A DNA stretch of 27,065 bases from Terramyces sp. JEL0728 (taxonomy: Eukaryota > Chytridiomycota > Chytridiomycetes > Rhizophydiales > Terramycetaceae). Every line of letters begins with the position of its first letter. Positions within the stretch are counted from its first letter, which is position 1. The stretch lies in contig JADIIU010000157.1 of the NCBI GenBank assembly GCA_027603945.1, positions 1-27,065 of the forward strand. The letters are read 5' to 3'. Shown here piece after piece: positions 1,486-27,065 of this stretch. Below the pieces are notes generated by a model. That model did no database searches. It was not told the origin of the DNA and worked only from the letters and a program-made list of their open reading frames with translations. A program made the position numbers and the translations under genes.

Positions 1486-3530
1486 TTAAACTGTTAATTG
1501 CAAGTTCTCTAAAAATGTCCCCAAGTCATCCTTTGCAACTTTGACACAACTGCTATCAAAGAAATCTATTGTAATTTCAATTCCAGTCTTGCTCGCTGCA
1601 TCCATAAACGCAAGGCCAAATAAACTGCATTAAAAAAGATTACTTTTTCCTTGACGGCTCTCTGCCTAGTACGAGATACGTACCCGTTTGTTCGTCCAAC
1701 GCAGCAATCACAAAAGGCAAGTGTTTTTGACGATGCTCCTAAAGTTAATAGAATTTACTTTGTATGCTTCAATAATAAATGTGGATAAGCGGTATAGAAG
1801 AGGTATACTCTTGCCGAATAAGTGTAGCTGCTCGCCATCCCCATATCCACTCTTTAGCACGCAAAACTGGAAATGTTTAAGTGTTTGGACTCGTTTTTTG
1901 AGCAGTAAACTAGATCCTGTGGATACAAGAATCTTTTGGTAGTGTATCGATAGTAAAATACCGTGTAGAATGATATGTGGGGAGGATAATGCGTCGTAAG
2001 CCAAGTAAAAATTTTTCAGCCAAGGTTTCCTGGCATCCAAGTCGTTTGATTCAAGTTTTCCTTTAATTTCCGAAATAATCTCTCCAGCTACTGTTTTTGT
2101 ACCTATGCCTGCACCTACCAATCCTCCTTCGCTCATTGCAGTTGTATCTTGGTATTTGTGTAGCAGATTGCTAGTCGCGGAAGTTAGATTTTCGTATCCG
2201 CTAAAAGAATGGTTATCCAAGAACGATGTACCACAATCCAATAATGCAGTTAGTGAATATACAGTGTCTGTTGCTGATAAAGTGGTAATATAGCCGTATT
2301 TGCGCTGAAAAGACGGGAACAAGAGATCTGGCAAGTTGTATAATGGGGCAATTTCTTCTAGTTTTTCTTTCAACAAAGATTTGAAGGATACAGACATTTC
2401 CTTGTAAAACTGCTTTGATTCTTTTTGAGGAAACCCCATTTTAACCAATAAATTCACTAATCGCTCTCTACCTTTTTCTTTCCAGATACCAAACCTAGTG
2501 CCAACATAAGTTGAATGGAAAAGGGAATCATATAAATTCCAATGTTTCAGCAACATTAATTGCATTTCCTCGATAAATTCTATGGAATAATCATCAGTCT
2601 TTGATTCTGATGCAATGGTTAAACGATCCACCTGGATCTTTAGATCTGCAGCATACTGTGTGTATTGCACAGTTGATAGTTTGCCATAAATATAATTATT
2701 AGTTGTACTTGTGATTGTATGCCTGAGATCAATTCTAATTACCACAAGAAGTTGCAGTTTTCTCTTCCCAGTTGTACAGATAATTCAAATAGCAAGTAGC
2801 AGATTGGTGTGCCGTAAAAGGTGCCTTCATTATAGTAATTATTAATAAGTTGTTTGTATTCTCTCTTGATCCGCTTTTTCGATGGGACACCGCTACTTAG
2901 ACTCTTGCGTTTCTTTTTCGGCTGTTCACCGTCCTCTTCGTTTTCATCCTGGTTCTCTTTTTCTGTATCACTGGCATCTCCATCTTCTTGATCTTCCTCT
3001 TCAGACTCTTCCCCTTCAGATTCTTCACTTTCATCGTCAGACGCGTACTACATAAACAAACAAATACTTGAATACTGTCATACGCTTCCTTTAGCTCATT
3101 GTGGTGCTCTATCGGTTCTTCATCAATAATAACTATTTGATTTCCTCCAAACAAATTGTGTAAATTCATTGGCCGATGTGAATCCAGAATATAAACTAAA
3201 GAATCGTTAATTTCCAAATATTCTTGTAAATTAACCATAATCCCAACGTTCAAGCATATTATCACAGGATAGGAATCCTCCAGTTTCAAATCAGAGTAAC
3301 AAGAAATAGGTAAAAACTGGTACGATATCAGATCTTGCTTTAGTAATTCCTTGTTAGTTTGTTCGTACTACTAGTATTTTTAGAGCGCAGAGAGAGTCAA
3401 CGTCAGAGTGGACGAGGATCATTACTGTCCCCTTTCCTACCTTGCGTTTCATTTGCTGGTATACATCAATGAAAAACTGCTTGATTTGAAATCCCATAAG
3501 ATTGAAAAATACTTTTCGCTGTTCGGACAT
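1486..3530 (-). CDS. CDC45: CDC45, replicative CMG helicase subunit
   Basis: Six exons on the minus strand: 3530-3369, 3349-3068, 3047-2743, 2722-1759, 1738-1644, 1624-1486. The five introns are 19, 20, 20, 20 and 19 nt. The spliced reading frame is 649 codons (648 residues), close to yeast CDC45. Family blocks appear in order: ILVHSDVDSLCALKI (DHH-like core, exon 1), YILDSHRP (exon 2), a long Asp/Glu-rich stretch beginning at about residue 149 followed by a basic PKKKRK, then LINNYYNEGTFYG, FGIWKEKGRERLVNLL, EEIAPLYNLPDLLFPSF and HLPFVIAALD. CDC45 joins MCM2-7 and GINS as the replication fork helicase in the nucleus. Exon 1 contains the start ATG followed by MSEQRKVFFN. The stop TAA is embedded in TAATAAA. 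All five junctions restore family alignment, so the model is firm. Confidence 0.93.
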
Positions 3531-3594
3531 TCAGGCAATTAAAGCAGCGATGTATCCTAATGTCGCTGATCGCAAGCTTAATAATCAAGTAGGA

Positions 3595-3600: not shown

Positions 3601-3620
3601 TATAAAATAACAATCTCAGT

Positions 3621-4592: not shown

Positions 4593-4600
4593 GCAATCAG

Positions 4601-4648: not shown

Positions 4649-4900
4649 ATGTCAGTAAGATTCAACGAACTAGTTCAAGTTGTACATACTCACCATAAAT
4701 CGGATTACGATAGATCTTCGATCCTAGTAGACCCTATCACTAAAACTGACATTTTCGTTTTGTTACAATTAAGAAAGACTTTCCAACAACATACACTTTA
4801 TTTGGAATATTTAAGAAACATGATAGAAAACAAGAAGCATTTGAATATAAACGCTCCCGAATTCGTACCTAGAGGGTACTTTATGGACATTCAATTATAA
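4649..4900 (+). CDS. Small protein with a PAM2 (PABC/MLLE-binding) motif
   Basis: An 83-residue intronless protein. Residues 65-74 read LNINAPEFVP, a near-perfect PAM2 motif (consensus LNPNAxEFxP) with the key Leu65 and Phe72; PAM2 binds the MLLE domain of poly(A)-binding protein. The N-terminal part has VRF at residues 3-5 and SDYDRSSI at about 18-25, resembling a (V/R)xF...EYDR block found in small fungal proteins thought to bind protein phosphatase 1; this second resemblance is weaker. The middle, about residues 33-61, is probably helical. The likely role is cytoplasmic, linking something to the poly(A) tail, similar in concept to animal Paip2, but that is inference. The stop codon is part of TAATAAA, and a TATA box and TGACTCA precede the gene. 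Confidence 0.72.
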   Translation: MSVRFNELVQVVHTHHKSDYDRSSILVDPITKTDIFVLLQLRKTFQQHTLYLEYLRNMIENKKHLNINAPEFVPRGYFMDIQL

Positions 4901-5167: not shown

Positions 5168-7069
5168 ATGACAAAAAGAGATCTGGATGAAGAAAATAGT
5201 GATGATGACTTTGGACCTAAACCAGCACAAGAAGAAGTAGGACCACAGCCAGTGGAACTAAAGAAACACAAAGGTACACACAAATTAATTCCAGTGGACC
5301 ATGAAGAACTGTATCTCTCAAACCTTCCAAACACCGATTCATACGAAGTTTCATTGATGCACAGAGATACTGTGAATTTCGTATTCATTACAAAAACCGA
5401 TTTTTTAATTACTTGCTCTATTGATGGACATGTAAAGTTCTGGAAAAAGACTGACAAGGGAATTGAATTTGTCAAGCATTTCAGAGCGCATGTTGGATTA
5501 ATTACCAGCGGAACAGTTAGCTTTGATGGATTATTGTTTTGCAGTTGTTCAATCGACAAGACACTAAAGATTTTCGATGTTATTAATTTTGATATGATTA
5601 ATATGATCAAAACAGAGTATGTTCCGAATACGAGTTGTTTCGCTTACCAAAATGGACAAGCAGTGTCGCTATTGGCGGTTACTGGAAAGGAAGATAATCT
5701 GATTTACTTTTATGATGGGAAAACTTCGCAGGATATTATTAGGACTATATCTGTATTCCAAACTACGTCAATGATTCTGTATAATCCCGTTTATGATGTA
5801 TTGTTGGGGTGCGATGATCGTGGGATGATTGAATACTTTACTTTGGATCTTGATTCAGAACTTGGATTCAGCAAACCTGGAAATATGAAATGGAAATTAA
5901 AATCAGATACGGATTTGTACGAATTCAAGAAACAGCGACTAGTACCTACATCGATAGTATTTTCGAATGATTACAAAATGTTTTCTGTTTGGGAATTCAA
6001 ATCTAGAGTGTTGCGTATTTATGACTTTCTGACCGGCAAAATCATCAAAAAGATTGACGAGTCTCTGCAACTAATTTCTGAAAAACAGCAGGAGGCTGAA
6101 GACCGCATGGATGACATGGAGTTTGGACGGCGATTGGCATTAGAAAGAGAATTTGAGAAACCAGGCCAGGGACAAACGTGCAACTCTTGTTTTGACGAAA
6201 CCAATACTTTTATCATTTACCCTACAATGTTTGGAGTCAAGATGGTGAATCTAAAGAATGATAATACCGTGCTAATTGGTAATTATTCCTAACACTAGGG
6301 AAATCAGAAACAATCAGATACATGAATATATGTTTATACCAAGGTCAGCCTAAAAAGAAACAACTAGTAACTGTTGAAATGGCAGCATCTGAGAATATAG
6401 TACTAAGAGAGTCAGAAGAAACAGATCCCACAATATTCTGTACTTCATACAAAAAGAACAGGTTTTATTCATTCAGTAGGAGAGAGCCAGATTCCAGTGC
6501 AACCAGGGATATATTTAACGAAAAGCCAACGCGGGAAGAAGGAATCATCAATCAACAAAACGAAATTCAACAGCAGCACGGAACTGAAGCAATGATACAC
6601 ACTTCTTACGGAGATATTATTGTCAAGTTGTATCCGGAATATGCTCCTAAATCGTGCCAAAACTTTGTTGAATTATCTCAAAAAGGTATTTTTCGTTAAT
6701 GTAGGCTATTACGACGGATGCCACTTCCATCGTGTAATCAAGAACTTTATGATTCAAACAGGGGATCCGTTAAACGACGGCACAGGCGGTGAAAGTATAT
6801 TCGGCGGCGAGTTTGAAGATGAATTCCATCCATTTATCCGACATGATAGACCGTATATGGTCTCGATGGCTAACTCTGGGCCAAACACCAACGGCAGTCA
6901 GTTTTTCATTACTGTTGCTCCTTGTCCATGGCTGGATAACAAGCATTCTATTTTTGGCAAGGCTATTAGTGGGCATGATGTGATTCATCGTATTGAGAAT
7001 GTTGAAACTGACAAGTATGATCGGCCGTGGGAGCCAATTAAAATTATAGGGGTTGAAATCCGACAATAA
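5168..7069 (+). CDS. PPWD1: PPWD1-type WD40-repeat peptidyl-prolyl isomerase (spliceosomal cyclophilin)
   Basis: Three exons, 5168-6278, 6299-6685 and 6705-7069, with 20- and 19-nt introns; 620 residues, close to human PPWD1 (about 646). The N-terminal third to half is a WD40 domain (for example [33 protein letters not shown]). The linker carries the PPWD1 blocks MAASENI and [15 protein letters not shown]. The cyclophilin domain occupies about the last 155 residues, with the catalytic segments [23 protein letters not shown] and [11 protein letters not shown], including the Arg, Gln, Phe, Trp and His positions known to line the active site. The family acts in the nucleus in late spliceosomes, isomerising prolyl bonds. 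Each intron removes a stop and restores the family sequence. The stop TAA lies inside AATAAA. Confidence 0.94.
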
Positions 7070-7183: not shown

Positions 7184-8384
7184 ATGAATATTCTAATCTC
7201 GCTGCTGCTTTTGTTTGTGTGGGCAGATGAAGAACTAAACCCAATCCAACCAGAACCAGCTAATCTCAGATGGTACTTGCCAATCACTGGTCCACCACTG
7301 GCTTTTGTAGGTGTACAGGATAAACGAATCATTGTCCACACTGCAAATTCGGTAATTGGAGTCAACGCATCCAACGGAGCGTTTCTATACAATTCCACAA
7401 TCAAACAAGAATTCAAACTCGTGAAATTGACAGAGAAGTCTATTCTGACTGTATCTGTTGGCGACTCTGTGTATTTTGGAATGTGGGATTTACAAAATGG
7501 AAAAGGATACTTGTGGTTGGATTTAAAAGAAACCCGGGTTATTAATGTGGATATACTACTGAAAGATTACGTTTATATTCTGCTGAATGATAAAATTATC
7601 TGTTTGGATCATGGCGAAATTAAATTTGTTCATCAAGGTAGAGGATACGAATTTTTAGAGTACAGAGAAGATTTGATGGCGATTGGACACCATAATAATC
7701 ACCTAGTCTTTACAAAAATCGATGGCAGTGGTAAAGCCATCGACGATCTTGATTTTCAAGTGCCTATATCGACAGATCCGCAATTTGTCGTCCTGGGCAA
7801 CAATGAATTCTTGCTTTGGATTGATCAGAATAGGCTGTATGGATTAAACATGTACAGTAATGAATTGTTGGATTTCCAAGTATTTGCTGATATTGAAAAT
7901 TTTGATAAATTAAAGAAAGAGCTGATTTTAATTGACCAAAAAACTAACAGCGTGATCATTGCACTACCTGATTTCTATGTGCTAATGCACATTTTCAACC
8001 CACAAGATCCATATATTGAATACCATGATTTGGAACGGAATGGAAAGAGTGTTTTTATATTCAGAGATGAAAACAAGGATAGACCGACACTAGGACGCAT
8101 ATACCAACTGGAAGGCGTGTATATTTTTGATTTACTAGATCCAACGACAGGTAATCTGTGCTAACAAAGGCAAACTATTGCAAAATTACTACCTCGAAAA
8201 CAAATTCCACATCAAAATCGAAAAGGGATGGATTAATACATTCATGGTTGATTTGGAAAGCTATGCGTTTAATCTGGTTGTATTTTATAGCCAAGGGATA
8301 TGCAGTTTTCGAATGGAGGATTATATGCTTGATGAGCATGTTTATGAACAAGAGTACCTTCAAATGGTTCATGACGAATTGTAA
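7184..8384 (+). CDS. ER-lumenal protein with signal peptide and C-terminal HDEL (possibly EMC1-lumenal/beta-propeller-like)
   Basis: Two exons, 7184-8150 and 8170-8384, joined across a 19-nt intron (GTAATCTGTGCTAACAAAG); 393 residues. The protein starts with a clear signal peptide (MNILISLLLLFVWADE), has N-glycosylation sequons at N61 and N70 and ends in HDEL, the ER retrieval signal recognised by Erd2/KDEL receptors. HDEL is only read in frame after splicing. The body is beta-rich with repeated aromatic/hydrophobic strands and TTG/NG turns such as VNASNGAFLYNST and LLDPTTGKLLQN, reminiscent of the PQQ-like lumenal propeller of EMC1, but no EMC1 C-terminal block or membrane anchor is present, so the family is uncertain. 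The stop lies inside TAATAAA (8382-8388), supporting this as the true end. It is therefore likely a soluble ER resident. Confidence 0.7.
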
Positions 8385-8636: not shown

Positions 8637-9325
8637 TTATTCAAGCAAGTCCAGCAGACCATCAAACAAACCAACTGAGAATAAAATAACGCAAGTGACA
8701 ATCAAAACGACTGCAAAAACAATCCAAATCCAAATATACCATTTACTCTTTGGTTTTTCCACTCTACTCTCGACATCAATCAACGGTTGCGTTTCAGCGA
8801 CAGTATCATTAGAATCTTGTCTGACAATCTTTGGTTGGCAAAACTGTTGAAATTCTTCAACTAGATCAGGTCTGGCTTTTAATAATTTTGTAACTAATCC
8901 AGTAACCTACATTAATGAATAGTACGGTATCTGCATCCAGCTGTCCTCTCTGGAAATCTCTGAATAGTGTAAGGAACTGGTCGTATACAGCTGGGTTATC
9001 CTTATAAGCTACTTTTATCTATATTAGCAGAGTATACTTTGTTTACAAATGCTATCGCAGATCCGAATTGAGTAGGTGCAGGCTGTACTTTAGGCTGTGA
9101 AATCATACACTCTTCAAACTGTGTAAGCAAGTGCGGATAATCCTGTAATAAAACAGAGACTCGTTCATGTACAGTATTTGAATCTATGGATTTCTTTTTA
9201 AAACTTGATAGGATAGAGTGGAATTCTTTGTTTGTTTCTGGTGGTGTCTGGGTGCGGATTTGGTCCAACAACGAATAGGCTCTTACAGAGTATGAACCTA
9301 TTGATGTTTCACTTTGTCTGTCCAT
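8637..9325 (-). CDS. Double PAH-domain (Sin3-type) protein with C-terminal transmembrane anchor
   Basis: Three exons, 9325-9038, 9018-8926 and 8906-8637, with two 19-nt introns; 216 residues. Residues about 12-75 form one paired amphipathic helix (PAH) unit (SYSVRAYSLLDQIR ... VSVLLQDYPHLLTQFEECM). Residues about 86-150 form a second, very close to Sin3 PAH (FGSAIAFVNKIKVAYKDNP, then VYDQFLTLFRDFQRGQ, VTGLVTKLLKARPDL). A polar linker leads to a strongly hydrophobic Trp/Ile/Val helix at about 183-205 and a 10-12 residue tail. Sin3 itself is a large soluble nuclear scaffold with three or four PAH domains, an HDAC-interacting region and no membrane span. This is a mini-protein with only PAH units, built like a tail-anchored protein. 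Location (ER or nuclear envelope) and ligands are inference. The stop overlaps AATAAA. Confidence 0.85.
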
Positions 9326-9687
9326 TATTTTGGTTGAACTTTTTGAGGCACGAAAAAATGAAATTGACTTGAAACATGTGAAATCAACAGCAAGTGTTTA
9401 TATTACTCATCCAGAGTATCGCCTTGATCCGAGAAGCAGCCTAATGCTGAAAAGTTAGAGTAGTCTGCGGATTTTCGCCAGTTTCGATCTTCTGTATAGG
9501 GTTATACAAACGTGCAGTTAGGAAATTGCCAACCCTGCAAGCCAGAGTTTGATTTGGAAAGTGTCAAGCTTAATAGTATCAAGCTTAATAGTGTCAAGCT
9601 TAATAGTATCAAGCTTAATTGTGTCACAAGACTTTCGGCCCAAGAAAGAAGCCATGCAGGAAATGGCCGACAGATTCTTTACAGAAA
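9326..9687. other. Divergent intergenic region with minisatellite
   Basis: Region between the minus-strand PAH gene and the plus-strand dehydrogenase. It contains a four-copy 15-nt repeat (9561-9620) and, at 9654, an ATG opening a 23-codon frame (stop at 9718-9720) that overlaps the dehydrogenase start in another phase. No TATA box at the expected distance was found. Confidence 0.4.
9561..9620. repeat. 15-nt tandem repeat, four copies (two 30-nt dimers)
   Basis: Four head-to-tail 15-nt units, GTGTCAAGCTTAATA alternating with GTATCAAGCTTAATA; the third base alternates G/A, so the higher-order unit is 30 nt. The last unit ends AATT and is followed by a partial copy (GTGTCA). Each unit holds a HindIII-type AAGCTT. 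It lies 68 nt before the dehydrogenase ATG. Confidence 0.9.
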
Positions 9688-10451
9688 ATGCCAAAGGTAG
9701 CAGTCATCACAGGTTATAGTCACTAATACTAGGAGCCTCATCCGGATTCGGAAAGCAATTATCAGTTCGTCTCGTAGATCGTGGCTACAATGTCGTTATT
9801 TCTGATATGAACGACAAGGCAGGAAAGGAACTCGAGGCTCTCTTGAACAAGAAAAGACCTAATAGCGCTTCTTATCTGCACTGCGATGTCACTAAAAAGC
9901 AAGATCAAGAAGCACTGATCAAACATGCAGTCCAAAAGTATGGCAAGTTGGATGCAATGGTCAACAATGCAGGTATTGGCGAAAACATTGAGTTCAGCCA
10001 AAACACAACAGACAACTGGATTAAAGTCATGGACATTGATCTTACTGCTGTTATCCTTGGAACAAGATTGGCGATTGAGCAATTCAGAAAACAAAAGACT
10101 GGCGGTTCAATTGTTAGTACTGCGTCATTAGCAGGTTTGTACCCAGTCCCCCAACAACCAGTATACGCAGCAGCTAAAGCTGGAGTAGTAAACTTTACAA
10201 AATCGTTTGCAGGGTACAAAAAAGAAAATATTAGGGTAAACTGTGTATGTCCTGGGTATGTAAAGACTGGAATTACATCTGGTAAAGCACAAGAGATTAT
10301 GGGGATTAAGGAATGGATTCCTATTGACAAAGTAATTGACGCGTTTGTGCTTGGAATCGAAGATGAATCACTTGGTGGGGATGTTATTCGTATTACCACT
10401 CAATACGGCGTTGATTTGCCTTTCAACAAAAAGTACAAGTCTAGACTCTAA
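9688..10451 (+). CDS. Short-chain dehydrogenase/reductase (classical SDR)
   Basis: Two exons, 9688-9712 and 9733-10451, with a 20-nt intron that splits the nucleotide-binding glycine motif; 247 residues, typical for classical SDRs. The spliced N-terminus is MPKVAVITGASSGFG (TGxxxGxG). NNAG lies at residues 86-89, and the catalytic triad is S140, Y153, K157 (YAAAK), followed by NIRVNCVCPGYVKTGI, the usual PG motif. The enzyme should use NAD(H) or NADP(H); an acidic Asp in VVISDMND after the second strand is more usual for NAD preference. The substrate is unknown. The start was chosen because the first exon gives the correct beta-strand before the glycine motif. An upstream overlapping frame (9654) could act as a uORF. 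The gene ends in TAATAAA. Confidence 0.92.
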
Positions 10452-10529
10452 TAAAGATGGCAGTCATGATTTTACTCTATCTAAAGTGTGATGTAATACA
10501 GTACGTCATTCACCATATAATTTTCCAAG

Positions 10530-11496
10530 ATGTTTTTGACAACTGGAGAGTATGTCGATGGAACAGCGCTCGATTATATCGATTACACAAACACAGTAGA
10601 TATTTTCGCACTTGTCTTGATCTGCATTTACCTCTTGTGTACAATCACCATGCTCATCCTGATTCTAAATGGATGGACCAGGATACCTAAATCCAAAGTG
10701 TACTCGTTTGTACTGTATATCAATGTGCTGCTGCTGGTATTTTACGTTGTAACACTACTACGGTATTCGTGGTTTAGTAACCCGCTTCTGTGCTGGATGT
10801 ATTCTGTTATTGGTGGCACGGGTGCATGCTCTGTTGTTGTTGGGTAAATGGAACTAATGCAGGCAAATGGAGATTTTGAAATCGTTTACAGCCAAAAGTA
10901 GGTTCCTGACAGTCGACCGCATTGTTATCGCGCAAAAAGGGTATGTTGTGTTCAGTTTGGTGTGTATGTGTGGGTTATACGGGACAGTTGGTTACTTGGG
11001 ATACCAACGTCCAAAGTTTCTCGAATCGGCAAGTGAAAACTGATTTAGTGGTACACTTACGGCTACATCCTCTTCCTTTTTGTTTCTTTGTCCTATGAAA
11101 CGTAAATTGGTTTGATTTGCAGGTTCCATTCGGTGTATGTAAGCAACAGTGTAATTGAACACCTAAAAGAACGGAAACGGGTATTCTATTCAGACACACT
11201 ATCGAATGCAAGAGAAACAAGCGCGTTTAATCATATATACTACTTGGTAATAAGCGACTTTGTATTAGACTGGATTGCGGCTGTATTTTGGGTAATCAGT
11301 TTCTTTTCCGATGATTACAGGACGACTTTTGGGTACGAGTAGTTAATGCAGGATGCTTGGAAGTGCTACTGGGTATACCCATATTCTATTTGTTATTCTG
11401 GTGTTCAAGAAGCTTCGTGAAGCGAATATGAATAAGGGAAAAGAAACAACTGGAAAAGAAACGATTGCGTCTGCAACAACCAAGCAAGAAGATTGA
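10530..11496 (+). CDS. Multi-pass (about 7TM) membrane protein, family 1, copy A
   Basis: Five exons, 10530-10843, 10863-11028, 11049-11101, 11123-11332 and 11352-11496; 295 residues. Introns are 19, 20 (a GC-AG intron), 21 and 19 nt. I do not recognise the family. About seven hydrophobic helices are visible: FALVLICIYLLCTITMLIL, YSFVLYINVLLLVFYVVTLL, LLCWMYSVIGGTGACSVVVG, a fourth around VVFSLVCMCGLYGTVGYLGY, a fifth in YTYGYILFLFVSLSYET, a sixth in LDWIAAVFWVISFF and a seventh in THILFVILVFKKL. The N-terminus has a conserved GxYxDGxxLDYxDYxNxVDI segment before helix 1, and the tail is short, polar and Lys/Thr-rich. The exon structure was solved by aligning copy B codon by codon. A receptor-like or sensory surface role is possible but unproven. 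AATAAA is at 11541. Confidence 0.75.
11029..11048 (+). other. 20-nt GC-AG intron in 7TM family 1 copy A
   Basis: GCAAGTGAAAACTGATTTAG. Only removal of exactly this segment aligns the flanking codons (...LES | WYTYGY) with copy B, where the same position holds a 19-nt GT-AG intron. GCAAGT is the typical donor of GC-AG introns. Confidence 0.7.
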
Positions 11497-11540
11497 CAAA
11501 ACAATATCCGATGATGATGAAGGATAGGCATTTTCAGGTT

Positions 11541-11546
11541 AATAAA
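11541..11546 (+). terminator. Poly(A) signal AATAAA of 7TM family 1 copy A
   Basis: AATAAA 45 nt after the stop of copy A and 50 nt before the ATG of copy B. Confidence 0.5.
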
Positions 11547-11596
11547 AGGATCATCTATTGCAAGATTAAAACGTGTCAAATTGTTGACATCATTTT

Positions 11597-12562
11597 ATGG
11601 GGGTTTTGACTGTTGGGCAGTATTTAGACGGGAGCCCTCTGGATTACCTGGATTACTCCAATGCAGTAGATATTATCGCTCTCGTTGTTACACTCTGTTA
11701 CTTGACTGCCAACATCATCCTAATGATTCAAATCGCTCGGGGATGGTTAGAAATACCACCATCGAAAATTTATACACTAGTTTGGTATATGAATATCTTG
11801 TTGTTTATTTACTACATCGCAATGCTACTGCGGTACTCGTGGTTCAGTTTTCCTTTGCTTTGTTGGATATATTCAGTAATTGGAGCGGTTGGGGTATGCT
11901 CAGTCATTGTAGGGTAAATGGATATAATGTAGACAGATGGAGATACTTCAGGCGTTTACTACAAACAGTGTTTTTTTAAACGTAAAGAGGATCCAGCTAG
12001 CTCAGAAACTGTATGTGGTATTCAATTTGGTTTCGATGGGAGGACTGTATATTTCAGTTGGGTATTTAGGCTACCCAAGACCAGACATTATTGCCATAGT
12101 AATCATTGCTAATCCAGTGGCATTCTTACGGTTACATTTTGTTTCTATTGGTATCGCTGTCTTATGAAACGTAAGATTTGGCTAACAAGGTTCCATGCTA
12201 TTTACGTCAGTAGAAGTGTAATTTATCATCTTACTGAACGAAAGCGAATGAATTTATCCAATTCTGCAAAGAACCAGGATGAAGACACGGCGTTTAAACT
12301 GATTTACTATGTGGTCAATGTGGACATTATTGTCAATTGGATTGGCGTAGTGATTTGGGTAATCAGTTTCTTTTACCAGCCTTTTGCAACTCCATTTGGG
12401 TAATTACAAGCTAACTTTTGTATTATTGGAACTGCGATTGGGTATGGACACGTCATGTTTGTCACCGTTGTGTTCAAATTATTACGTCAAGTCAATATTA
12501 GGAAGCATTATGGCGAATCAACTGAAAAGTCTACCACTGTACATGGCACACCTAAATTATAA
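11597..12562 (+). CDS. Multi-pass (about 7TM) membrane protein, family 1, copy B
   Basis: Tandem paralog of the preceding gene, also 295 residues and also five exons: 11597-11913, 11933-12098, 12118-12170, 12190-12399 and 12421-12562. Exons 2, 3 and 4 have exactly the same lengths as in copy A (166, 53, 210 nt). Shared blocks include LLRYSWFS, PLLCWxYSVIG, QMEIL, GYLGYxRP, SLSYETFH, ERKR and VISFF, and the last exon shares GxxxGYxH. Introns are 19, 19, 19 and 21 nt. The fourth intron (12400-12420) has a GT donor and a CTAAC branch-like motif but ends in TG, not AG. If it were retained, translation would stop immediately after PFG and the seventh helix would be lost. The gene may be functional, a recent pseudogene or affected by a base error. 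Confidence 0.7.
12400..12420 (+). other. 21-nt intron with non-canonical TG acceptor (copy B)
   Basis: The segment starts GTAATTACAAG and continues CTAACTTTTG. Removing it restores the exact reading frame and codon alignment with copy A and gives the same total length (295 residues). No AG is available at a frame-compatible position nearby. Confidence 0.55.
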
Positions 12563-12586
12563 ACCTGGAAGTTGTTTGATTGTCTC

Positions 12587-12592
12587 AATAAA
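12587..12592 (+). terminator. Poly(A) signal AATAAA of 7TM family 1 copy B
   Basis: AATAAA about 25 nt after the copy B stop. The position fits a gene that still has a normal 3' end despite the odd last intron. Confidence 0.5.
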
Positions 12593-12747
12593 CTCTTGCG
12601 ATTATCCCCGCTAATGGGATTGCAAAGTTCAAGACCACTTAACGGATTGCAGATTAATTACTTTGAGCCCTGCGGTTAATGAGCATTCTAAAGAACGAAG
12701 CCTGCTTTCCAATTGCTTTTTCACAACAGAGCCTACGATAACTGGCG

Positions 12748-12755
12748 TATAAAAG
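12748..12755 (+). promoter_or_regulatory. TATA box of the histidine phosphatase gene
   Basis: TATAAAAG, 30 nt before the ATG at 12778. Transcription starting about 30 nt downstream would begin practically at the start codon. Confidence 0.6.
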
Positions 12756-12777
12756 ATTAGATTAATCTGATATTAAT

Positions 12778-16478: not shown

Positions 16479-16851
16479 TATACATTTTTTCGTCCTATGT
16501 AGTTAGCTTCAATACGCGATTGCACTCAAACGTCCATTCAATCAACCAAATCTATGCAATGGGCTTTCACTGCCTCGCAAATTCTTGTGTCCCGATGGAG
16601 CAACCAAAGGGAGGCGGACTATCTTGGGAACTGAAATTTGGATCGAGACAAAAGTACAACAAACCACTCAAAAGCAAACCAAAAGCCGAATCCAGCAAAC
16701 CAATTCTTTTAAAACACCACACACTTGTTTATCTCCAATCCTTTCGTAGCTTTAATAAAAAGAAAATTTGGTCGTTCGCTGAAACAGCAGAAATAAATTC
16801 ACCGAAATGCGGGGCATATAAATCAATTCAATCCCCAGAAAATTCTTACTC
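16479..16851. other. Intergenic, promoter region of 7TM family 2 copy C
   Basis: 373 nt. A 102-codon plus-strand frame (16559-16867) runs through it and over the next start codon; it is Lys/Ser-rich without recognisable motifs and overlaps a TATA box, so I treat it as probably non-coding, with low certainty. Confidence 0.35.
16817..16822 (+). promoter_or_regulatory. TATA box of 7TM family 2 copy C
   Basis: TATAAA 35 nt before the ATG at 16852. Confidence 0.6.
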
Positions 16852-17972
16852 ATGCGACCATTCGTAGCTTACACAGTTCCAGCATGTCTATTCGTAGGAT
16901 TCGCAATCCACGACTTGTTCTCCTCGTTTATTCTCCTCCTTATGAAATACAAAACAGCAGGTAATACAATCTTGTGGAAAATCGCATTTGCCACTTGCAT
17001 GTTACTGTTTGTTTTCGTTGTGTTCCAAATAATGGTGCTGGATTTCTTTGCCAGTCCTTATAACGTTACCAACCAGTACATTGGGTTTATCATTGGGATG
17101 AATTACTTGCTGGCTTGGCTGGTTACTGTTGGTGTTAGTTTTATGCTTGTTGTCCGGATCAAGTTGTTTTACGGCAAGACATCCATGCTGTTCAAATTGA
17201 TGACTATTTATGGTGGTGTTGTAGTAGTGCTGAAAGCTGTTGGTGAAAGCATTGGGCTTTATGTTTGTTACCGTGTAGCTATTGGCAAATACGTTATTCC
17301 AAACTATGATCCGCTGTATCCAGTACTTTGTATTAATTGTAGACGGTTGCGTTAGCATTGGCGTTTGGTCTAACTTTTGAAGCAGTGTTTTCTGCAATTG
17401 GTACTTTTTCGTTCTTGTATTTCTTGACTGGATTCCAGGGATTCAAGAGGGATATCATTAGAGATAGAAAGTTCCAAAAGGAAGGTGCTAGATTAGTTGT
17501 CATCTTTGTGTTGAATGTCATCGTAGCTACATTGGGTATCTGGCTAGCTATTGATGATAACTGGATTGACCATTCGGCTTATTTCGTTCCATCGTGTATC
17601 TATTCTCTTGAACTGTATGTGTTCTTGGATTTATCATACAACAATGCCAAGGATATGCTTATTTCTTCAAAAGACAAAGGATCTAGTCAAACTAATAGCA
17701 AGCCCGGCATAGAAAGCAGACAGAAATCCACTACAGTGTCAGTGCAAGGAAAGGAACCAGTACCACAGTATGAAAAACAGTTCAGATCGATGAATACCAC
17801 TCAATATGCACCAAAGCAGTATACACCATATCCAGAGGATTCTTACACTAGCCAAGCAAATTCTAATGACGGCTACCAAACCAATCTGATGACTTCAATG
17901 CCGCCTAAAGTGCAACAAAGACAAAGAAACCAGAACGACTACGAGTCAACCAAAGTAGTAAACTACTTTTGA
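16852..17972 (+). CDS. 7TM membrane protein, family 2, copy C
   Basis: Two exons, 16852-17322 and 17343-17972, with a 20-nt intron; 366 residues. The family is not recognised. Seven hydrophobic helices are evident: about CLFVGFAIHDLFSSFILLL, IAFATCMLLFVFVVFQIMVL, FIIGMNYLLAWLVTVGVSFM, a fourth in YGGVVVVLKAVGESIGLYV, a fifth in LALAFGLTFEAVFSAIGTF, a sixth in LVVIFVLNVIVATLGIWLA and a seventh in PSCIYSLELYVFLDL. They are followed by LSYNNAK and a 100-residue Ser/Gln/Tyr/Pro-rich hydrophilic tail ending in NYF. Very short N-terminus, 7TM core and long Ser/Thr-rich tail resemble a receptor layout, but there is no sequence link to a known receptor class that I can name. The intron sits between DPLYP and the fifth helix and is absent from copy D. 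Confidence 0.78.
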
Positions 17973-18028
17973 AACTAATAGATAATATTACCTTGGTTTT
18001 TTCATGTTTCACTTTGGTATGCGGTAAA

Positions 18029-18036
18029 TATAAAAA
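18029..18036 (+). promoter_or_regulatory. TATA box of 7TM family 2 copy D
   Basis: TATAAAAA, 36 nt before the ATG at 18065, matching the 35-nt spacing of copy C. Confidence 0.6.
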
Positions 18037-18064
18037 TAACACCGCAAAAAGGTTTCATAAAAAA

Positions 18065-19108
18065 ATGCGAGACTACAACGCATACATTATTCCATCTTGT
18101 GTATTCGTAGGATTCGCCATCCATGACTTGTTTATCGCTATTTTGCTACTGGGTTCCAAAGCACGAAAAGCTAGCGATACCATTCTGTGGAAGCTGGCCC
18201 TACTTACCTGGCTGCTGATTCTAGTATTTGTTTTCTTTCAAGTAGTCGTATTGGATTTCTATGCGTCGCCTTACTATGTCTCTCTTTCGTTTCTTGCGTT
18301 CATTGTTGGTGCAAACTACTTGGCGCACTTTCTGGCGACTATTGGGATTACACTGATGATGGTGGTGCGGGTTCGGTTATTCTATGGTGCGAAATCAGCT
18401 TTTTATAGGTTGATGGCTGTATTTGGTGTGCTGGTTGTGCTGTTTAAAGGCGCTGCCTGCACCATTGGCACTCTAGTGTGCTTGCATGTATCCAATGGCG
18501 ACTATGCACATTTTACTTACGATCCGCTGTACACAAAAATTGCGCTGTCATTTGCAGTGGCACTTCCAATCGAAGGAGTATTCGCGGTATCAGGCACACT
18601 CTCATTCCTGTATTTCTTGACGGATTTCAAAGGATTCAACAATATCGCAATACAAAAAGACAAGAAATTCCAAAGCGAAGGTCTTCGACTACTAGTGATT
18701 TTCGCACTAAATATCGCTGTGGCTATTCTGGCAATCTGCGTAGCAATTGAAGACATGTACATTGACCACGTTTCTTTCTTTATCCCATCATGTATTTACG
18801 CACTAGAATTCCACGCGTTCTTGGATTTGTCGTACAATAATGCCAAAGTCATGCTTGCTACTACTAGGTCATCGGAAAAGAAGGATAAATCGACCAACAT
18901 CATCAATAGGAATACAAACAACTCGCGCGTTGACCAGTCTAATGAATCTGTGGATGAACCCAACTACTTTCAAGCTTCCGGGTACAATGCTTCCTACGGC
19001 GAATTCAAGTCTAGACACATACCTGCCGATCACAAGCCGCAGTTTTATCAGGCGTCTATCAATTCCATGCCTCCAAAGAGTCCAAATCCGACGGTGGAGT
19101 ATTTCTAG
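18065..19108 (+). CDS. 7TM membrane protein, family 2, copy D
   Basis: Intronless tandem paralog of copy C; 347 residues. I start it at ATG 18065 (MRDYNAYIIPSCVFVG) because this aligns with the copy C start (MRPFVAYTVPACLFVG) and places the TATA box 36 nt upstream; the longer open frame upstream lacks an aligned ATG. Conserved blocks are FVGFAIHDLF, NTILWK/DTILWK, VVLDFYASPY, YDPLY, SGTLSFLYFLTDFKGF, FIPSCIYALE and FLDLSYNNAK. The C-terminal tail (about 85 residues, Asn/Ser-rich) differs in sequence from copy C, except that both end with SMPPK ... V(N/E)YF. AATAAA is at 19155. Function unknown; probably a surface or endomembrane protein. Confidence 0.82.
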   Translation: MRDYNAYIIPSCVFVGFAIHDLFIAILLLGSKARKASDTILWKLALLTWLLILVFVFFQVVVLDFYASPYYVSLSFLAFIVGANYLAHFLATIGITLMMVVRVRLFYGAKSAFYRLMAVFGVLVVLFKGAACTIGTLVCLHVSNGDYAHFTYDPLYTKIALSFAVALPIEGVFAVSGTLSFLYFLTDFKGFNNIAIQKDKKFQSEGLRLLVIFALNIAVAILAICVAIEDMYIDHVSFFIPSCIYALEFHAFLDLSYNNAKVMLATTRSSEKKDKSTNIINRNTNNSRVDQSNESVDEPNYFQASGYNASYGEFKSRHIPADHKPQFYQASINSMPPKSPNPTVEYF

Positions 19109-19154
19109 CTGCCGAGCTTTAACCTATCTATTATTCACTGCTAAATTTTTATAG

Positions 19155-19160
19155 AATAAA
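19155..19160 (+). terminator. Poly(A) signal AATAAA of 7TM family 2 copy D
   Basis: AATAAA 46 nt after the stop codon of copy D. Confidence 0.5.
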
Positions 19161-19470
19161 AAATCCGGTGGATTGCGATGGAAAGATCCGTCAGTTTGGA
19201 TTCCGCTGAATACGGTCATGTTCTGACTATTTTCCCTTGTTTTGTATTATTACTGTTAAAGTTCGGCTTGTTCCAAATTCTACGGCCGATGTAACGGACA
19301 CAATTTTTAGCGGCTGGTGACGTGGTATAGAAGTAGAGCAACTGCCATATATTCGGTCGAATTTCAAAAATATATTTACATTCCTTCTACTCCACGGCAT
19401 GTTGTTCAATTGGTGGTTCACTATTCACCTCGAAAAGGAAATCCACTCGATGACCCGATCCTAAAAGACT

Positions 19471-19491
19471 TCGGGTTTGATTCAAACCCGA
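19471..19491. promoter_or_regulatory. Perfect inverted repeat (10-nt arms, 1-nt centre) abutting the TATA box
   Basis: TCGGGTTTGA, then T, then TCAAACCCGA. The arms are exact reverse complements and the outer triplets give CGG-N13-CCG, the layout bound by Zn2Cys6 dimer regulators in fungi. The last base overlaps the A preceding TATAAAAG. It could equally form a hairpin in DNA or RNA. Confidence 0.7.
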
Positions 19492-19499
19492 TATAAAAG
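19492..19499 (+). promoter_or_regulatory. TATA box of ABC transporter 1
   Basis: TATAAAAG, 33 nt before the ATG at 19525. Confidence 0.65.
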
Positions 19500-19524
19500 C
19501 AGTGAAAATCGAACCCAGCTGAAA

Positions 19525-22500
19525 ATGGGCGAAAAAGAAAAGCTGGATATCCCAGAGAGTAAATCTGACAAAAAGGATGTCGAAAAAACCAAGGCAATTC
19601 CATATTACAAATTGTTCACATACGCTACAACCACAGAAGTATTATTTGATGTATTCGCAATCTTCATGGCTTTAGTTTCTGGTTCCGCATTGCCATTTAC
19701 TACAATTATTTTTGGGGATTTAGTCGATTCATTCGCCAAATGGCAAGGTAAATCCAAATATAATTTTAGCTCAACCATTCCCTGGCGCTTTAATTACAGC
19801 TGATCAGTTGGCTTCAGATGTCAGCAGCAAAGTCATATTCTTTATTTATCTTGCGGTTATTTCGTTTGTATCTACTTATGTTTTCATGGCAACTTTTGTT
19901 TATACTTCAGAAGCTTCTTGTCACAGAATCAGAAAGGAATATTTGCTCGCTGTTATGAGACAAGATATCGCTTGGTTTGACACTGTTGGTGCTGGTGAAG
20001 TGTCTACAAGAATTACAAACGATACTCTATTGATCCAGGACGGTATTGGTGAAAAGCTTCCGTTAGCATTCGCATCCGTCGCTACGTTTATTGCTGGGTT
20101 CGCTATTGCATTTTACAGAAGTTGGAAAATGACATTGATGCTTTTATCCGTTATTCCGTTTATCGTTGTGTCTGCTGCTATCATGAACGTAGCTGCTGGA
20201 AGATTCCAAACTAGAATCTCTGCTTTATATGGGAGCGCTGGCAATATTGCTGAAGAAAGTATCAGCTCGGTTAGAACCGTTGCTTCGTTCAATGGACAAA
20301 AGAAAGTTTCAGCACTGTACGATGAAAGTTTGGGGGCAGCTCGAAAAGAAGGTAATCAAAATTAACTTTAGGAATTAAAAAGTCGTATGTTGTCGGCCTT
20401 GGTTTAGGGGTATTGATGTTCTTTTTATATCTCGCGTATTCCGTTGCATTTTGGTATGGCCACATCCTGCTCAATAACAATGAAATTACAGTTGGCACTG
20501 TCGTAAACGTCTTTTTTGCTGTACTTATTGGTGCCTTCTCTCTCGGTCAACTTGCTCCAGATCTCCAAGCTTTTGCATTTGGCATTGGGGCTGGAAACAA
20601 GATTTTCGAAACAATTGAACGTGTTCCGCCAATTGATGCCTATGACAAAGGCGGTTACAAGATTCCAAAGGACAATGTTGAAGGAAAGATTGAGCTCAAA
20701 GATGTTGAAGTAAGTACTGATTAATATTAGTTTACCTACCCATCCAGAAAAGAAGTAAAGATCTTGAAAAAGTTGAGTCTTACCGTATTACCTGGACAAA
20801 CTGTTGCTCTAGTCGGACAATCTGGCAGTGGAAAAAGTACTATTATTCAATTGTTGGAGCGATTTTACGATCCCCAAGCTGGCACTGTCGAGTTGGACGG
20901 CCGTCCTTTAACAGAGCTAAATCTGGCCTCACTTCGCCAAGTCATTGGGCTGGTTTCTCAAGAACCAGTTTTGTTTGAAGGAACTGTTGCTGAAAATGTC
21001 GCTCAAGGATTAGTTGGCTCGAAATTTGAACATGTTACTGGCGATGAAAGATTGGCTCTTATCCAAGATGCATGCAAACAAGCCAACGCTCATGAATTTG
21101 TTTTGAACTTGCCAAATGGTTATGATACCCAAGTTGGTGAACGCGGTATGCTTCTGTCTGGAGGTCAAAAGCAACGTGTTGCTATTGCGCGTGCTATCAT
21201 CAAAGACCCAAAGATTCTTTTGCTGGATGAAGCTACTTCCGCCTTGGATACTACTTCAGAAAGAATTGTGCAAGAGGCGTTGGACAATGTCTCCAAAACT
21301 CGCACTACAATTGCAATTGCCCACAGACTTAGTACCATCAAGAATGCAGACAACATTATCGTAATGGTCAGAGGTGAAATTATCGAACAAGGAAATCACG
21401 CTGAATTACTTGCCACTGGCGGATTATACTCTGAATTGGTTGCCGCTCAAGAATTGGAAACAAACAAGGCTGGCCAAACTGGGCAGAAGGAACATCAAGA
21501 AGAAGCATACACAGGATTGAAGAGTGCTATTAGCGATGAGCAAATGAAAGGAGGAAAAGATATCGAAGAAGGACAGGATAAGGAAATGACATCATTCCAA
21601 GTGTTGATTGAAATCATGAAGTTCAACTTGCCAGAATTAAACTTTACGATCCTTGGCTTCATTTCTGCCGTCGGAACGGGTTTGGTTTATCCATTCTTTG
21701 CTTACACTTTTGCTTCCATTATTGATGCCTTCTCTAAAAAAGGTCCAGAATTGGACACTGAAGCTCGTAATTGGGCACTGGCCTTTATCGGCATTGCAGT
21801 ATGGAATCTTATCTTCAACTTTGGCCAAAATGCATTCTTTGGTATCACTGCCGAGTTATTGACTGAGCGACTCCGTAAATTAGTATTCAAAGCCATTATG
21901 CGCCAAGAAATTGCGTTTTTCGATGAAGAGTCCCATTCAACTGGTGCATTGACTTCCAACCTTTCTACTGATGCCCAAAAAGTCCAAGGTGCGTCTGGTT
22001 CTACTCTTGGTATGATTCTACAAATTATCGTCAACTTGGTTGGCAGTTTGATCATTTCATTCATCTTTGGATGGAAACTGGCCGCTGTTGCTACTGCTTG
22101 TTTGCCTTTCTTGGTTTTGATGTCCTCCATTCGTATGGCAATCTTTACCTACTTTTCAAACAAGAGCAAAGTCGCTTACGAACGATCTGCTCAAGTTGCT
22201 TGTGAATCGGTTGCTGCTATTAAAACTGTGCAATCATTGACAAGGGAGAGGACTGTTTACAATAACTACACCGATCAGCTGGTTCAGCCTTTAAAAGATG
22301 GGCTGAAGAATGCTATTTTCAACACTCCATTGTACGCTCTCGCCCAGAGCTTCAACTTTGTAATCAACGCTCTAGTCTTTTGGTATGGCGGCCAATTAAT
22401 AGCCTACAACGGCTACACTACCAAACAATTCTTTACTGTATTTGTTGCTATCATTTTCGGTGCTCAAGGGATTGGCCGTGTCTTTGCATATGCCCCTGAT

Positions 22501-23733: not shown

Positions 23734-26700
23734 ATGGCGAAAAAAGAAAAAGCTCCTCCGTTAGATATCCCGTCAATTAAATATTCAGTAAATAAATCTA
23801 ATACAGACGTTATATACTTATGCTACTGGTGGAGAGTTGTTTGCAAATTTCCTAGGAATCCTTTTCGCAGTTGTATCTGGCGCAGCTTTTCCTGCAACCA
23901 CGTAAGTATGTACTGAAGGTAGTGTTGTATTTGGAGACTTGATTGATACGTTTGGAAAATGGGGAATACAACAAAGGCCTGGAGCTCCGCAATTGATTAC
24001 TGCTGAGCAATTCACCTCCAACATCAACTCTAGTACCTTGTACTTTTTGTACCTTGCAAGTATTAATCAATCTAATCTAGTCTTATCATTTTTCTCCACC
24101 TATGTTTCAATGGCCGCTTTCGTGTATACTGCTGAAGCCTCAACAAGTAGAATCCGCGACCAATACCTTAGAGCTGTGTTACGCCAAAATGTCGCTTGGT
24201 TTGACAAAGTCGGTGCCGGTGAAGGTTTTAATATGGCTAATTCAAGTCGCAACCAGAATTATTAGTGACACGCTTTTGATTCAAGATGGAATAGGCGAAA
24301 AGGTGCCTTTAGCCTTTTCATCCGTTGCTACCTTTATTGCTGGGTTTGTTATCGCATTTGTTAAATCATGGAAATTAACGTTGGTTCTTATTTGCGTTGT
24401 ACCTTTGGTTGCTATTTCAGGTGCTGTAATGAACATCATCAATGGAAAGTTCCAAACTAGGATCCTTGCCTTATACTCCCAGTCTGGAAATATTGCGGAA
24501 GAAAGTATTGCTGCTATTAGAACTGTTACCGCGTTCAACTCTCAAAAGAAAGTGAGCAAACTTTATGATGAAAGTTTGGCTGGAGCGCGTAAAGAAGGTA
24601 TTAAAAAGTGTATCTCGACCGGTATTGGGCTTGGTTCTCTGTTCTTTTTCATTTACAATGCTTACGCTCTTGCTTTTTGGTATGGTCACATTCTTCTTCA
24701 GAATAACGAGATTAGTGCCGGTGCAGTTGTAAACGTATTCTTTGCTGTCCTTATTGGTGCTTTCTCGCTTGGCCAGCTCGCACCAGATCTTCAGGCATTT
24801 GCATTTGGAATTGGTGCAGGAGCTAAAATCTTTGACACTATCAACAGAGTTCCGCCAATCGATCCATATGATGAAAGTGGAGAAAAAATTAAGCCAGAAG
24901 AAACCAAAGGAAAAATTGTCCTCAAAGATATCGATGTATTTTATGTTAATGCCAGTTTACTTATCCTTCTCGTCCTGATGTTCCAATTTTGAAAAAATAC
25001 AACCTTACTATCGAACCCGGTACCACAGTAGCTTTAGTTGGCCAATCTGGTAGTGGAAAGGTAGCTGTTCCTGATTTTAGAGTACCATTATTCAATTGCT
25101 GGAAAGATTTTATGATCCCGATAGTGGAGAAGTCGAACTTGATGATCGTCCTCTAAAATCTATTAATCTTAATTCTCTCCGTCAAGTTGTTGGTCTCGTA
25201 TCTCAAGAACCTGTATTATTTGAAGGAACAGTGTTTGAAAATGTTGCAAACGGTCTTGTAGGGTCACCACATGAAAATGCCAGTGATGATGAGAAGCTTA
25301 AACTGGTTCAAGAAGCTTGCAAACAGGCCAATGCCCATGACTTTATTTTGAAACTGCAAAACGGCTACAACTCACAAGTTGGGGAAAGGGGCATGCTACT
25401 TTCAGGCGGCCAAAAACAAAGAGTTGCCATTGCTAGAGCTATCATCAAGAATCCAAAGATATTACTGTTGGGTAAACGATGCTAATATCAGACGAAGCTA
25501 CTTCTGCCCTGGATACTACATCTGAAAGAGTAGTCCAAGCTGCCCTTGATAATGTCTCAAAATCTAGAACTACCATCACAATCGCGCACCGTCTCAGTAC
25601 CATTAAAAACGCTGACAAGATTGTTGTAATGGTGAGAGGCGAAATAGTCGAAACGGGTAATCACGACAGTTTGGTAAAGAATGGTGGTTTATATGCTACA
25701 CTGGTTAATGCCCAAACATTAAAGTCTGCTACCGAAGCTGAAAATCAACCTGGTCTAGAGGTTGACCCTGATGCAATTCAACCACCTCCAGTTGAAGAGC
25801 CAAAGAGGGTTTCGGAACCACTAGCCCCAGTTGTTGAAAGTTTGCACGACTTGGAAAAATTGGGAGATGATGTAAAGCTATCAACAACTTTTGTTGTTAG
25901 AGAAATTATGAAGTACAACATGCCTGAATTAAAATACACTATTCCGGGTTTAGTTGGGGCTATCGGAAGTGGTTTGATTTGTAATTGTTAATTTACTCTA
26001 GATCCATTCTTTGCGATTTCGTTTGCCAGTATTATTGGAGTGTTCTCTGCCAAAGGCAGTGATCTCGAGCAACAGGCTGATTTTTGGGCTGTCATTTTTG
26101 TAGTCATCTCTGTTGTCTATTTCATCTTCACCTTTTTGCAAAACACTCTGTTTGGATTTGCCGCCGAATTACTTACTGAAAGACTCCGCAAATGGACATT
26201 CAGTGCCATTTTGAGACAAGATATCTCATTCTTTGACGATGAAAAGAATTCTACTGGTGCCTTGACTTCCAACTTGTCCTCAGATGCCCAAAAAGTCCAA
26301 GGTGCGTCTGGAGTTACTCTGGGAACAATTTTGCAGATTATTGTAAACTTGATTGGTAATATTGCTGTTGCTCTTATTTACGGCTGGAAATTGGCTTTGG
26401 TTGCCACTGCTACCTTGCCTCTGCTTGTCGGCACCTCAATGTTCAGAATGATGATCTTTACATTCTTTGCAAACAAGAGTAAAGCTGCATATGAAAAATC
26501 TGCTCAAGTTGCCTGTGAATCTGTAGCTGCCATCAAAACAGTTCAATCCTTAACCAGAGAGAAAACGGTTCACCAACGTTACAAGGATCAACTTGTAGCT
26601 CCCCTCCGTGCTGGATTAAAGTCTGCGATTATGAATACACCGTTCTATGCTTTCAGTAACTGCGCCAACTTTTTGATCAACGCGCTTGTCTTTTGGTATG

Positions 26701-27065
26701 GCGGGCAGCTAATTGCCTATGAAGGATACGACATTCAGCACTTTTTTACTGTATTCGTAGCTATCATCTTTGGTGCGCAGGGTGTTGGTCGTGTGTTTGC
26801 CTATGCTCCTGGTATTGGCTGGACTAATGGTAGATTTGACAAAAGCTAAGGAATCTGGCGAAAACATTATCAAATTGCTAAATCGAAGACCAAGAATCGA
26901 TTCCGCACAAGAAGGCGCAAAGATTGAAAGTCCAGCTGGCCATGTAAAGTTATCAAATATAAAGTTCCACTATCCACACAGACCTGAAGTTAAGGTATTG
27001 AAAGGTCTCGACATTGAAGTAAAGCCTGGTCAATTCGCTGCTCTAGTTGGACCTAGTGGCTGTGG
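23734..27065 (+). CDS. ABCB exporter 2 (partial, 3' end beyond window)
   Basis: Tandem paralog of the preceding ABC gene. Exons: 23734-23787, 23807-23901, 23923-24059, 24081-24224, 24247-24935, 24956-25060, 25081-25471, 25492-25980, 26002-26811 and 26834 to the edge. The nine introns are 19, 21, 21, 22, 20, 20, 20, 21 and 22 nt. The joined frame stays open for 1048 codons and aligns with copy 1 throughout ([23 protein letters not shown] TMD1, [40 protein letters not shown]). The intron at 25061-25080 splits Walker A between GSGK and ST; that at 25472-25491 splits Walker B before Asp. The sequence ends inside the second Walker A. The interdomain linker is Pro/Glu-rich and unlike copy 1. Function as for copy 1; substrate unknown. 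Confidence 0.9.
24060..24080 (+). other. 21-nt stop-free intron in ABC transporter 2
   Basis: GTATTAATCAATCTAATCTA+G. Removing it gives [11 protein letters not shown], aligned with LAVISFVSTYV in copy 1. It is a multiple of three with no in-frame stop, so a retained copy would add seven residues rather than truncate the protein. Confidence 0.65.

Follow-up and report, generated by a model that had tools for sequence, protein, structure and literature searches.

Ultrashort introns are known from ciliates, mikrocytids, and nucleomorphs. Introns of the ciliate Stentor coeruleus range from 15–16 nucleotides (nt), with 8,173 of 8,806 annotated introns being 15 nt long, the branch A at nt 10 (nt 11 in those of 16 nt), and a tail of 5 nt, and the table of splicing factors lists Slu7, Prp18, and Cdc40 as not found (PMC9505925). 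Introns of 18–21 bp occur in the chlorarachniophyte (Bigelowiella) nucleomorph (PMC10245619, PMC4035089), and introns of 16–17 nt in Mikrocytos mackini and other mikrocytids (PMC10245619). In fungi, the 63-bp mean of Cryptococcus neoformans already counts as relatively short in a survey of 644 genomes, the accessible part of which mentions no introns near 20 nt (PMC8476143). Here, we analyzed a stretch of 27,065 bases (hereafter, the window), a contig (JADIIU010000157.1) of the assembly (15,016,339 bases in 231 contigs) of the chytrid fungus Terramyces sp. JEL0728 (Chytridiomycota, Rhizophydiales, Terramycetaceae), whose reconstructed genes are interrupted by segments of 19–22 nt. We propose, with a probability of about 0.93, that ordinary U2-type spliceosomal introns are held at about 19–22 nt throughout this genome.

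The length range is not far above the known minimum and is nearly equal to that reported for the Bigelowiella nucleomorph, where 19 nt is also frequent, whereas the nucleomorph is a relict endosymbiont nucleus and the Terramyces sequence a 15.0 Mb fungal nuclear assembly. As described for M. mackini, introns are numerous and of constrained length, although M. mackini is an obligate rhizarian parasite with a highly reduced spliceosome and Terramyces is a fungus. With other fungi, Terramyces shares U2-type introns, and its chytrid lineage is one that bears introns. Our literature search, with most subscription papers outside its reach, returned no report of introns of about 20 nt in a fungus. 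The deposited annotation of one window gene (protein P0217) already has such introns, so that the observation as such is in the public record, though perhaps nowhere described.

The window was decoded independently of an earlier list of introns, and the gene models were then fixed using paralogues and homologues. This rebuild contains 35 introns in 11 genes, with lengths of 19 nt (14), 20 nt (12), 21 nt (6), and 22 nt (3), and none of the 11 spliced models has an internal stop. An earlier note on this DNA had deduced 36 introns in 12 genes (14, 13, 6, and 3, respectively), all of 19–22 nt. The length class and the outermost introns (1625-1643 and 26812-26833) are the same in both lists, and one 20-nt intron of the earlier list was not identified in the rebuild. 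The 35 introns are as follows.

1625-1643, minus strand: 19 nt, CDC45; frame, Pfam CDC45 (552.6 bits), solved CDC45 chains
1739-1758, minus strand: 20 nt, CDC45; frame, Pfam CDC45, solved CDC45 chains
2723-2742, minus strand: 20 nt, CDC45; frame, Pfam CDC45, solved CDC45 chains
3048-3067, minus strand: 20 nt, CDC45; frame, beside an acidic stretch and loosely aligned there
3350-3368, minus strand: 19 nt, CDC45; frame, Pfam CDC45, solved CDC45 chains
6279-6298, plus strand: 20 nt, PPWD1-like cyclophilin; frame, alignment to solved human PPWD1 crosses the junction
6686-6704, plus strand: 19 nt, PPWD1-like cyclophilin; frame, alignment to solved human PPWD1 crosses the junction
8151-8169, plus strand: 19 nt, unnamed gene 7184-8384; frame and motif only, first exon without Pfam match
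8907-8925, minus strand: 19 nt, PAH-domain gene; frame, within the part of the spliced product that matches Pfam PAH
9019-9037, minus strand: 19 nt, PAH-domain gene; frame and motif
9713-9732, plus strand: 20 nt, short-chain dehydrogenase; frame, Pfam adh_short match 3-193 crosses the junction
10844-10862, plus strand: 19 nt, paralogue A; position common with paralogue B
11029-11048, plus strand: 20 nt, GC-AG, paralogue A; position common with a 19-nt GT-AG intron of paralogue B
11102-11122, plus strand: 21 nt, paralogue A; position common with paralogue B (19 nt there)
11333-11351, plus strand: 19 nt, paralogue A; position common with paralogue B (21 nt there)
11914-11932, plus strand: 19 nt, paralogue B; rebuilt gene model
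12099-12117, plus strand: 19 nt, paralogue B; rebuilt gene model
12171-12189, plus strand: 19 nt, paralogue B; rebuilt gene model
12400-12420, plus strand: 21 nt, GT-TG, paralogue B; frame, alignment to paralogue A
14796-14814, plus strand: 19 nt, Ku80-like gene; frame, Pfam Ku_N match 5-175 spans the intron
14946-14964, plus strand: 19 nt, Ku80-like gene; frame, Pfam Ku_N match 5-175 spans the intron
16417-16436, plus strand: 20 nt (or 14 nt, as 16417-16430), Ku80-like gene; frame only, ambiguous
17323-17342, plus strand: 20 nt, paralogue C; rebuilt gene model, by eye absent from paralogue D (18065-19108)
19748-19769, plus strand: 22 nt, ABC1 transporter; spliced product equals deposited P0217
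20352-20371, plus strand: 20 nt, ABC1; spliced product equals P0217
20710-20730, plus strand: 21 nt, ABC1; spliced product equals P0217
23788-23806, plus strand: 19 nt, ABC2 transporter (gene incomplete at the window end); junction continuous in ABC1 and relatives
23902-23922, plus strand: 21 nt, ABC2; junction alignment to ABC1 and relatives
24060-24080, plus strand: 21 nt, ABC2, in-frame read-through; seven-residue insert at the junction in P0214 of Boothiomyces macroporosus
24225-24246, plus strand: 22 nt, ABC2; junction alignment to ABC1 and relatives
24936-24955, plus strand: 20 nt, ABC2; position common with the 21-nt ABC1 intron at 20710
25061-25080, plus strand: 20 nt, ABC2; junction alignment to ABC1 and relatives
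25472-25491, plus strand: 20 nt, ABC2; junction alignment to ABC1 and relatives
25981-26001, plus strand: 21 nt, ABC2; junction alignment to ABC1 and relatives
26812-26833, plus strand: 22 nt, ABC2; junction alignment to ABC1 and relatives

The best supported gene models are ABC1, ABC2, PPWD1, CDC45, and paralogues A and B. The spliced ABC1 product is identical to deposited P0217 of Terramyces sp. JEL0728 over all 1,250 residues, and all nine ABC2 junctions are continuous when compared to ABC1, P0216, and P0218 (P0215 covers six of the nine without a gap). The alignment to solved human PPWD1 runs across both junctions of that gene, and the spliced CDC45 protein scores 552.6 bits against Pfam CDC45 and matches solved CDC45 chains. 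The least supported model is the unnamed gene at 7184-8384, which was read from frame and motif. With respect to their ends, 33 of the 35 introns are GT-AG, one is GC-AG (11029-11048), and one is GT-TG (12400-12420), so that 34 follow the U2-type rule (GT or GC donor, AG acceptor) and one ends in TG. They start with GTA (31), GTT (3), or GCA (1). When the search for a branch A was confined to 3–8 nt from the intron end, the best candidate was nt 14 or 15 of the intron in 30 cases out of 35 and preceded the final nt by 5–6 nt in 31, and a good candidate was absent from one (the last Ku80 intron). The claims of the earlier note that nearly all introns begin with GTA and that the branch site almost touches the acceptor are borne out by these counts.

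To these data we added bases 10001-20000 from each of the 20 longest contigs (200 kb; a non-random sample of about 1.5% of the genome), giving 227,065 of 15,016,339 bases together with the window. The decoder was a dynamic programming procedure on codon usage that allowed introns of 8–200 nt at equal cost, with the end dinucleotides as the sole requirement. An early, weakly trained version that was applied just to the window produced many wrong long introns and was superseded by the retrained decoder. In this motif-free decode, 67 of 186 GT-AG introns were 18–22 nt long, compared to 7, 7, 14, 9, 7, 11, 8, 8, 7, and 6 for ten control dinucleotide pairs (170–200 introns each), a comparison to be read with the caveat that the codon table was trained on the GT-AG decode. 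No other length class of GT-AG introns rose above the controls. Eight of the 67 are in the window and 59 outside, spread over 19 of the 20 outside loci. When motifs for donor and branch site, derived from the introns of 17–24 nt, were added with the length prior still flat, 172 of 250 introns were 19–22 nt long and any other single length accounted for at most three, and with the donor motif but without the branch term the number was 117 of 227. Four donors and four acceptors were also allowed to compete under the learned motif, and 144 of 167 GT-AG introns were then 19–22 nt long, followed by GC-AG (5/17), GT-TG (3/11), GT-AA (1/14), and GC-TG (1/7), with none among the 113 introns of the remaining 11 end kinds. 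The three GT-TG introns of this size in the sample are at L002, L018, and L020, and GC-AG introns of 20–21 nt were also seen at loci L004, L011, L016, L017, L021, and L022.

On the 227,065 bases sampled, nearly all detectable introns belong to a single ultrashort class (below about 25 nt). Compiled beyond the window, the length distribution has a narrow 19–22 nt class and is not centred above 40 nt, a centre that the earlier note had named as contrary to its claim, and the description of the genome as gene-rich holds as well, with 74% of the sampled bases called coding in the motif decode. Extrapolation from 0.76 introns per kb gives about 11,400 such introns genome-wide, a rough and likely low figure. 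An alternative is that the short introns are merely a subset, and that a second class of ordinary fungal introns of 50–100 nt was missed by our methods. This would agree with the introns of other lengths that the decoders called (119 of 186 outside 18–22 nt in the motif-free decode, 78 of 250 outside 19–22 nt in the motif decode), a few of which may be real. We take these calls for gene merges and boundary errors, of which only some were resolved. The motif-free decode found 14 GT-AG introns at 43–60 nt and 14 at 61–100 nt, below all ten controls in both ranges (21–31 and 24–43, respectively), and all 35 hand-rebuilt window introns (one ambiguous) are 19–22 nt long. A second class is therefore unlikely.

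In the motif-free set, the highest-scoring branch A falls on nt 14 or 15 in 59 of the 67 introns, and in 55 it precedes the last G by 5 or 6 nt, showing a fixed branch position near the acceptor like that of other ultrashort-intron genomes. A branch-like match is present in 64 of the 67, with the consensus YTAAY, and there is little room for a pyrimidine tract downstream of it. Nucleotides 7–10, before the branch, lean towards T (41% T and 12% C; non-coding sequence has 31.5% T). Donors read GTA in 55 of the 67, with no preference for G at +5 (14/67) and T at +6 in 45. Intron phases 0, 1, and 2 number 63, 47, and 26.

Intron length is held where sequence drifts. At the four positions where paralogues A and B both have an intron, the lengths are 19/19, 20/19, 21/19, and 19/21 nt, and ABC1 and ABC2 share one position (21 vs 20 nt), their remaining introns being unshared. 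Two copies of another gene, at L037 (C199) and L038 (C111), are identical at 3,072 of 3,092 aligned bases (99.35%) with five gaps, one of which is a single T within an intron that is thus 21 or 20 nt long, and the other four of which are past the stop codon. Left unspliced, the 21-nt form has in-frame stops and the 20-nt form would shift the frame, whereas both copies give the identical reading once spliced. Their near-identity suggests that they are allelic or recently duplicated. Sequencing or assembly indels, or pseudogene decay, would break the frame in the same way as any segment whose length is indivisible by three, and the odd GT-TG end in paralogue B might be put down to such damage. 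Indels or decay, however, would carry no donor, branch motif, and acceptor at fixed spacing, and would not recur at the same sites in sequence-diverged paralogues. Moreover, the segments sit in conserved genes of the single-copy type (Prp8 and CDC45). Already contradicted by the motif-free decode, the window rebuild, and the competing-ends decode, this explanation has next to no probability left.

Deposited proteins of relatives bear on the same introns. Prp8 of Boothiomyces sp. JEL0866, also of the Terramycetaceae, is identical to the Terramyces protein at 1,543 of 1,566 aligned residues, and its sole gap is seven extra residues at the site of a 20-nt Terramyces intron. P0214 of B. macroporosus has seven extra residues at the junction at 24060 and lacks eight residues beside that at 25061, and P0215, an ABC2 orthologue from a different species, lacks its N-terminal tenth. 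We read the seven-residue inserts as probable unremoved 21-nt introns because, at the protein level, their residues back-translate to GT...AG with a branch motif. In all likelihood, the minimal-intron class is shared across the Terramycetaceae. The prediction of the earlier note that standard gene finders will break nearly every gene was not borne out in this form, since the deposited ABC1 model is exact across three tiny introns (22, 20, and 21 nt), and damage in the relatives is local (the Prp8 insert; an insert, a gap, and a missing N-terminus in ABC2 orthologues). The ABC transporters P0214, P0215, and P0217 carry the deposited name ‘GTPase-activating protein’.

The splicing machinery was searched for in the assembly. 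U2 snRNA (small nuclear RNA) was found with 140.2 bits, its branch-binding box (GTAGTA) intact and GTGTAGTATC kept. Prp8 is present as a partial gene with introns of 20, 19, and 22 nt. SF1 aligns to human SF1 over KH-QUA2 and the N-terminal U2AF-binding stretch. The decoder had given SF1 introns of 15 and 131 nt, for which a three-frame reading yielded 21 nt (GC-AG) and 20 nt (GT-AG) instead. After removal of introns of 20, 20, 19, and 19 nt, U2AF65 matches solved U2AF65 over RRM1-RRM2 and the C-terminal domain. The step-two factors Slu7 (introns of 20, 20, and 21 nt) and Prp18 both score above their Pfam cut-offs, so that the loss of these factors listed for Stentor is not shared; the Prp18 match is split in two by 14 bases, and the decoder did not settle this break. 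For U2AF35, a search listed 16 CCCH fingers in the assembly, and Rfam searches for other snRNAs gave no match in the fetched loci (sets of 14 and 17) or in the window. The earlier note had expected a spliceosome adapted to a fixed, minimal intron; the factors that were found, including Slu7 and Prp18, are conventional with no adaptation seen and thus lend this expectation no support, and U1 and U6, in which a change of this kind might lie, were not found.

Several points weigh against ordinary spliceosomal introns of uniform size, in addition to the 78 motif-decoder introns of other lengths. The last Ku80 intron keeps the frame either as 20 nt (16417-16436) or as 14 nt (16417-16430), and introns that are in frame and lack stops are nearly invisible to the decoder, so that the share of 21 nt may be low. 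In a six-frame profile search, U2AF_lg scored 251.7 bits compared to a cut-off of 310.3, a shortfall that we attribute to introns breaking the match. Neither U1 nor U6 was found in the assembly by Rfam and pattern searches. For U1, Rfam gave no match in the assembly and none in the control genomes either, by which absence is not shown, and a pattern search gave six matches compared to nine for the control, none with ACTTACCTG on viewing. Two Rfam matches to U6 (27.4 and 26.9 bits; gathering score 44) were rejected, as they lie inside a protein-coding gene, across a tiny intron. Patterns for the U6 core (two stretches, up to three mismatches) gave three matches for one stretch, compared to four for the reversed control, and none for the other; of the three, L040 looks coding, and L041 and L042 were viewed at their ends only. 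That U1 and U6 are missing could be due to Rfam matches under the threshold, a gap in the assembly, or introns within the RNA gene, and we claim no loss. Finally, the level of removal is deduced from the DNA sequence, and the segments might instead be eliminated from the DNA, as happens in ciliates, or bypassed by ribosomes. We regard this as very improbable given the classic splice signals and the conservation of U2 snRNA, SF1, and U2AF65, whose RNA- and partner-binding regions align to solved homologues, and we know of neither process on such a scale in fungi.

Each intron consists of a donor GTAxxT, a branch site YTAAY with its A at nt 14 or 15, and the acceptor, with almost nothing in between. 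Under ordinary splicing, it would be removed from the RNA by the major spliceosome, leaving a lariat loop of 14–15 nt and a tail of 5–6 nt (the last G after the branch A). The lower bound on length may be steric, as the 5' splice site (with U6) and the branch site (with U2) must reach one active site, and the upper bound may be kept since recognition is tuned to this geometry. Pairing with U1 (to +6) and with U2 (about nt 8–16) would abut, in which case the two small nuclear ribonucleoproteins may hand over rather than bind together. A bolder and doubtful extension is that a donor-to-branch ruler of 14–15 nt enforces the 19–22 nt size in an opisthokont nuclear genome, with SF1, U2AF65, Slu7, and Prp18 kept and early assembly altered. 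As the footprints of U1 and U2 would meet, the first assembly steps would then have to differ, and there may have been a change in U1 or U6, given that the preference for G at +5 is lost, T at +6 is kept, and neither RNA was recognised.

Other features of the window were noted. In the protein encoded by the minus-strand gene at 8637-9325, a PAH domain (of the kind present in Sin3) is oddly paired with a hydrophobic stretch at the C-terminus. Tandem paralogues A and B (10530-12562; 295 amino acids each) and C and D (16852-19108) are by eye likely multi-pass membrane proteins; Pfam searches, which covered A and D, gave no match for either of these two. A 15-bp tandem repeat in four copies (9560-9619) lies just upstream of the dehydrogenase gene, and an open frame of 83 amino acids at 4649-4900 has a PAM2 motif near its end.

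Terramyces sp. JEL0728 has an ultrashort-intron genome in a new place of the tree, a chytrid, and its minimal introns are a real, genome-wide class. With Stentor, Terramyces shares a narrow ultrashort class, GT-AG ends, a fixed branch, a tail of about 5 nt, U2 with GUAGUA, and a genome that is not that of an intracellular parasite (we take the Terramyces lineage to be free-living). It differs in the branch A at nt 14–15 rather than 10–11, in a strong YTAAY as opposed to a weak branch consensus, and in the presence of Slu7 and Prp18. The tail is as long as that reported for Stentor (about 5 nt) while the loop is longer (14–15 vs 10–11 nt), a hint that tail length is the stricter constraint. Deposited chytrid proteins should be used with the warning that they can carry seven-residue inserts that are probably unremoved 21-nt introns. 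A fungus with close relatives and conventional Slu7, Prp18, SF1, and U2AF65 would allow direct tests of what sets the minimum size of an intron that a spliceosome can remove, and of whether Slu7 and Prp18, both kept here, can be dispensed with in nature when the branch site lies close to the acceptor.

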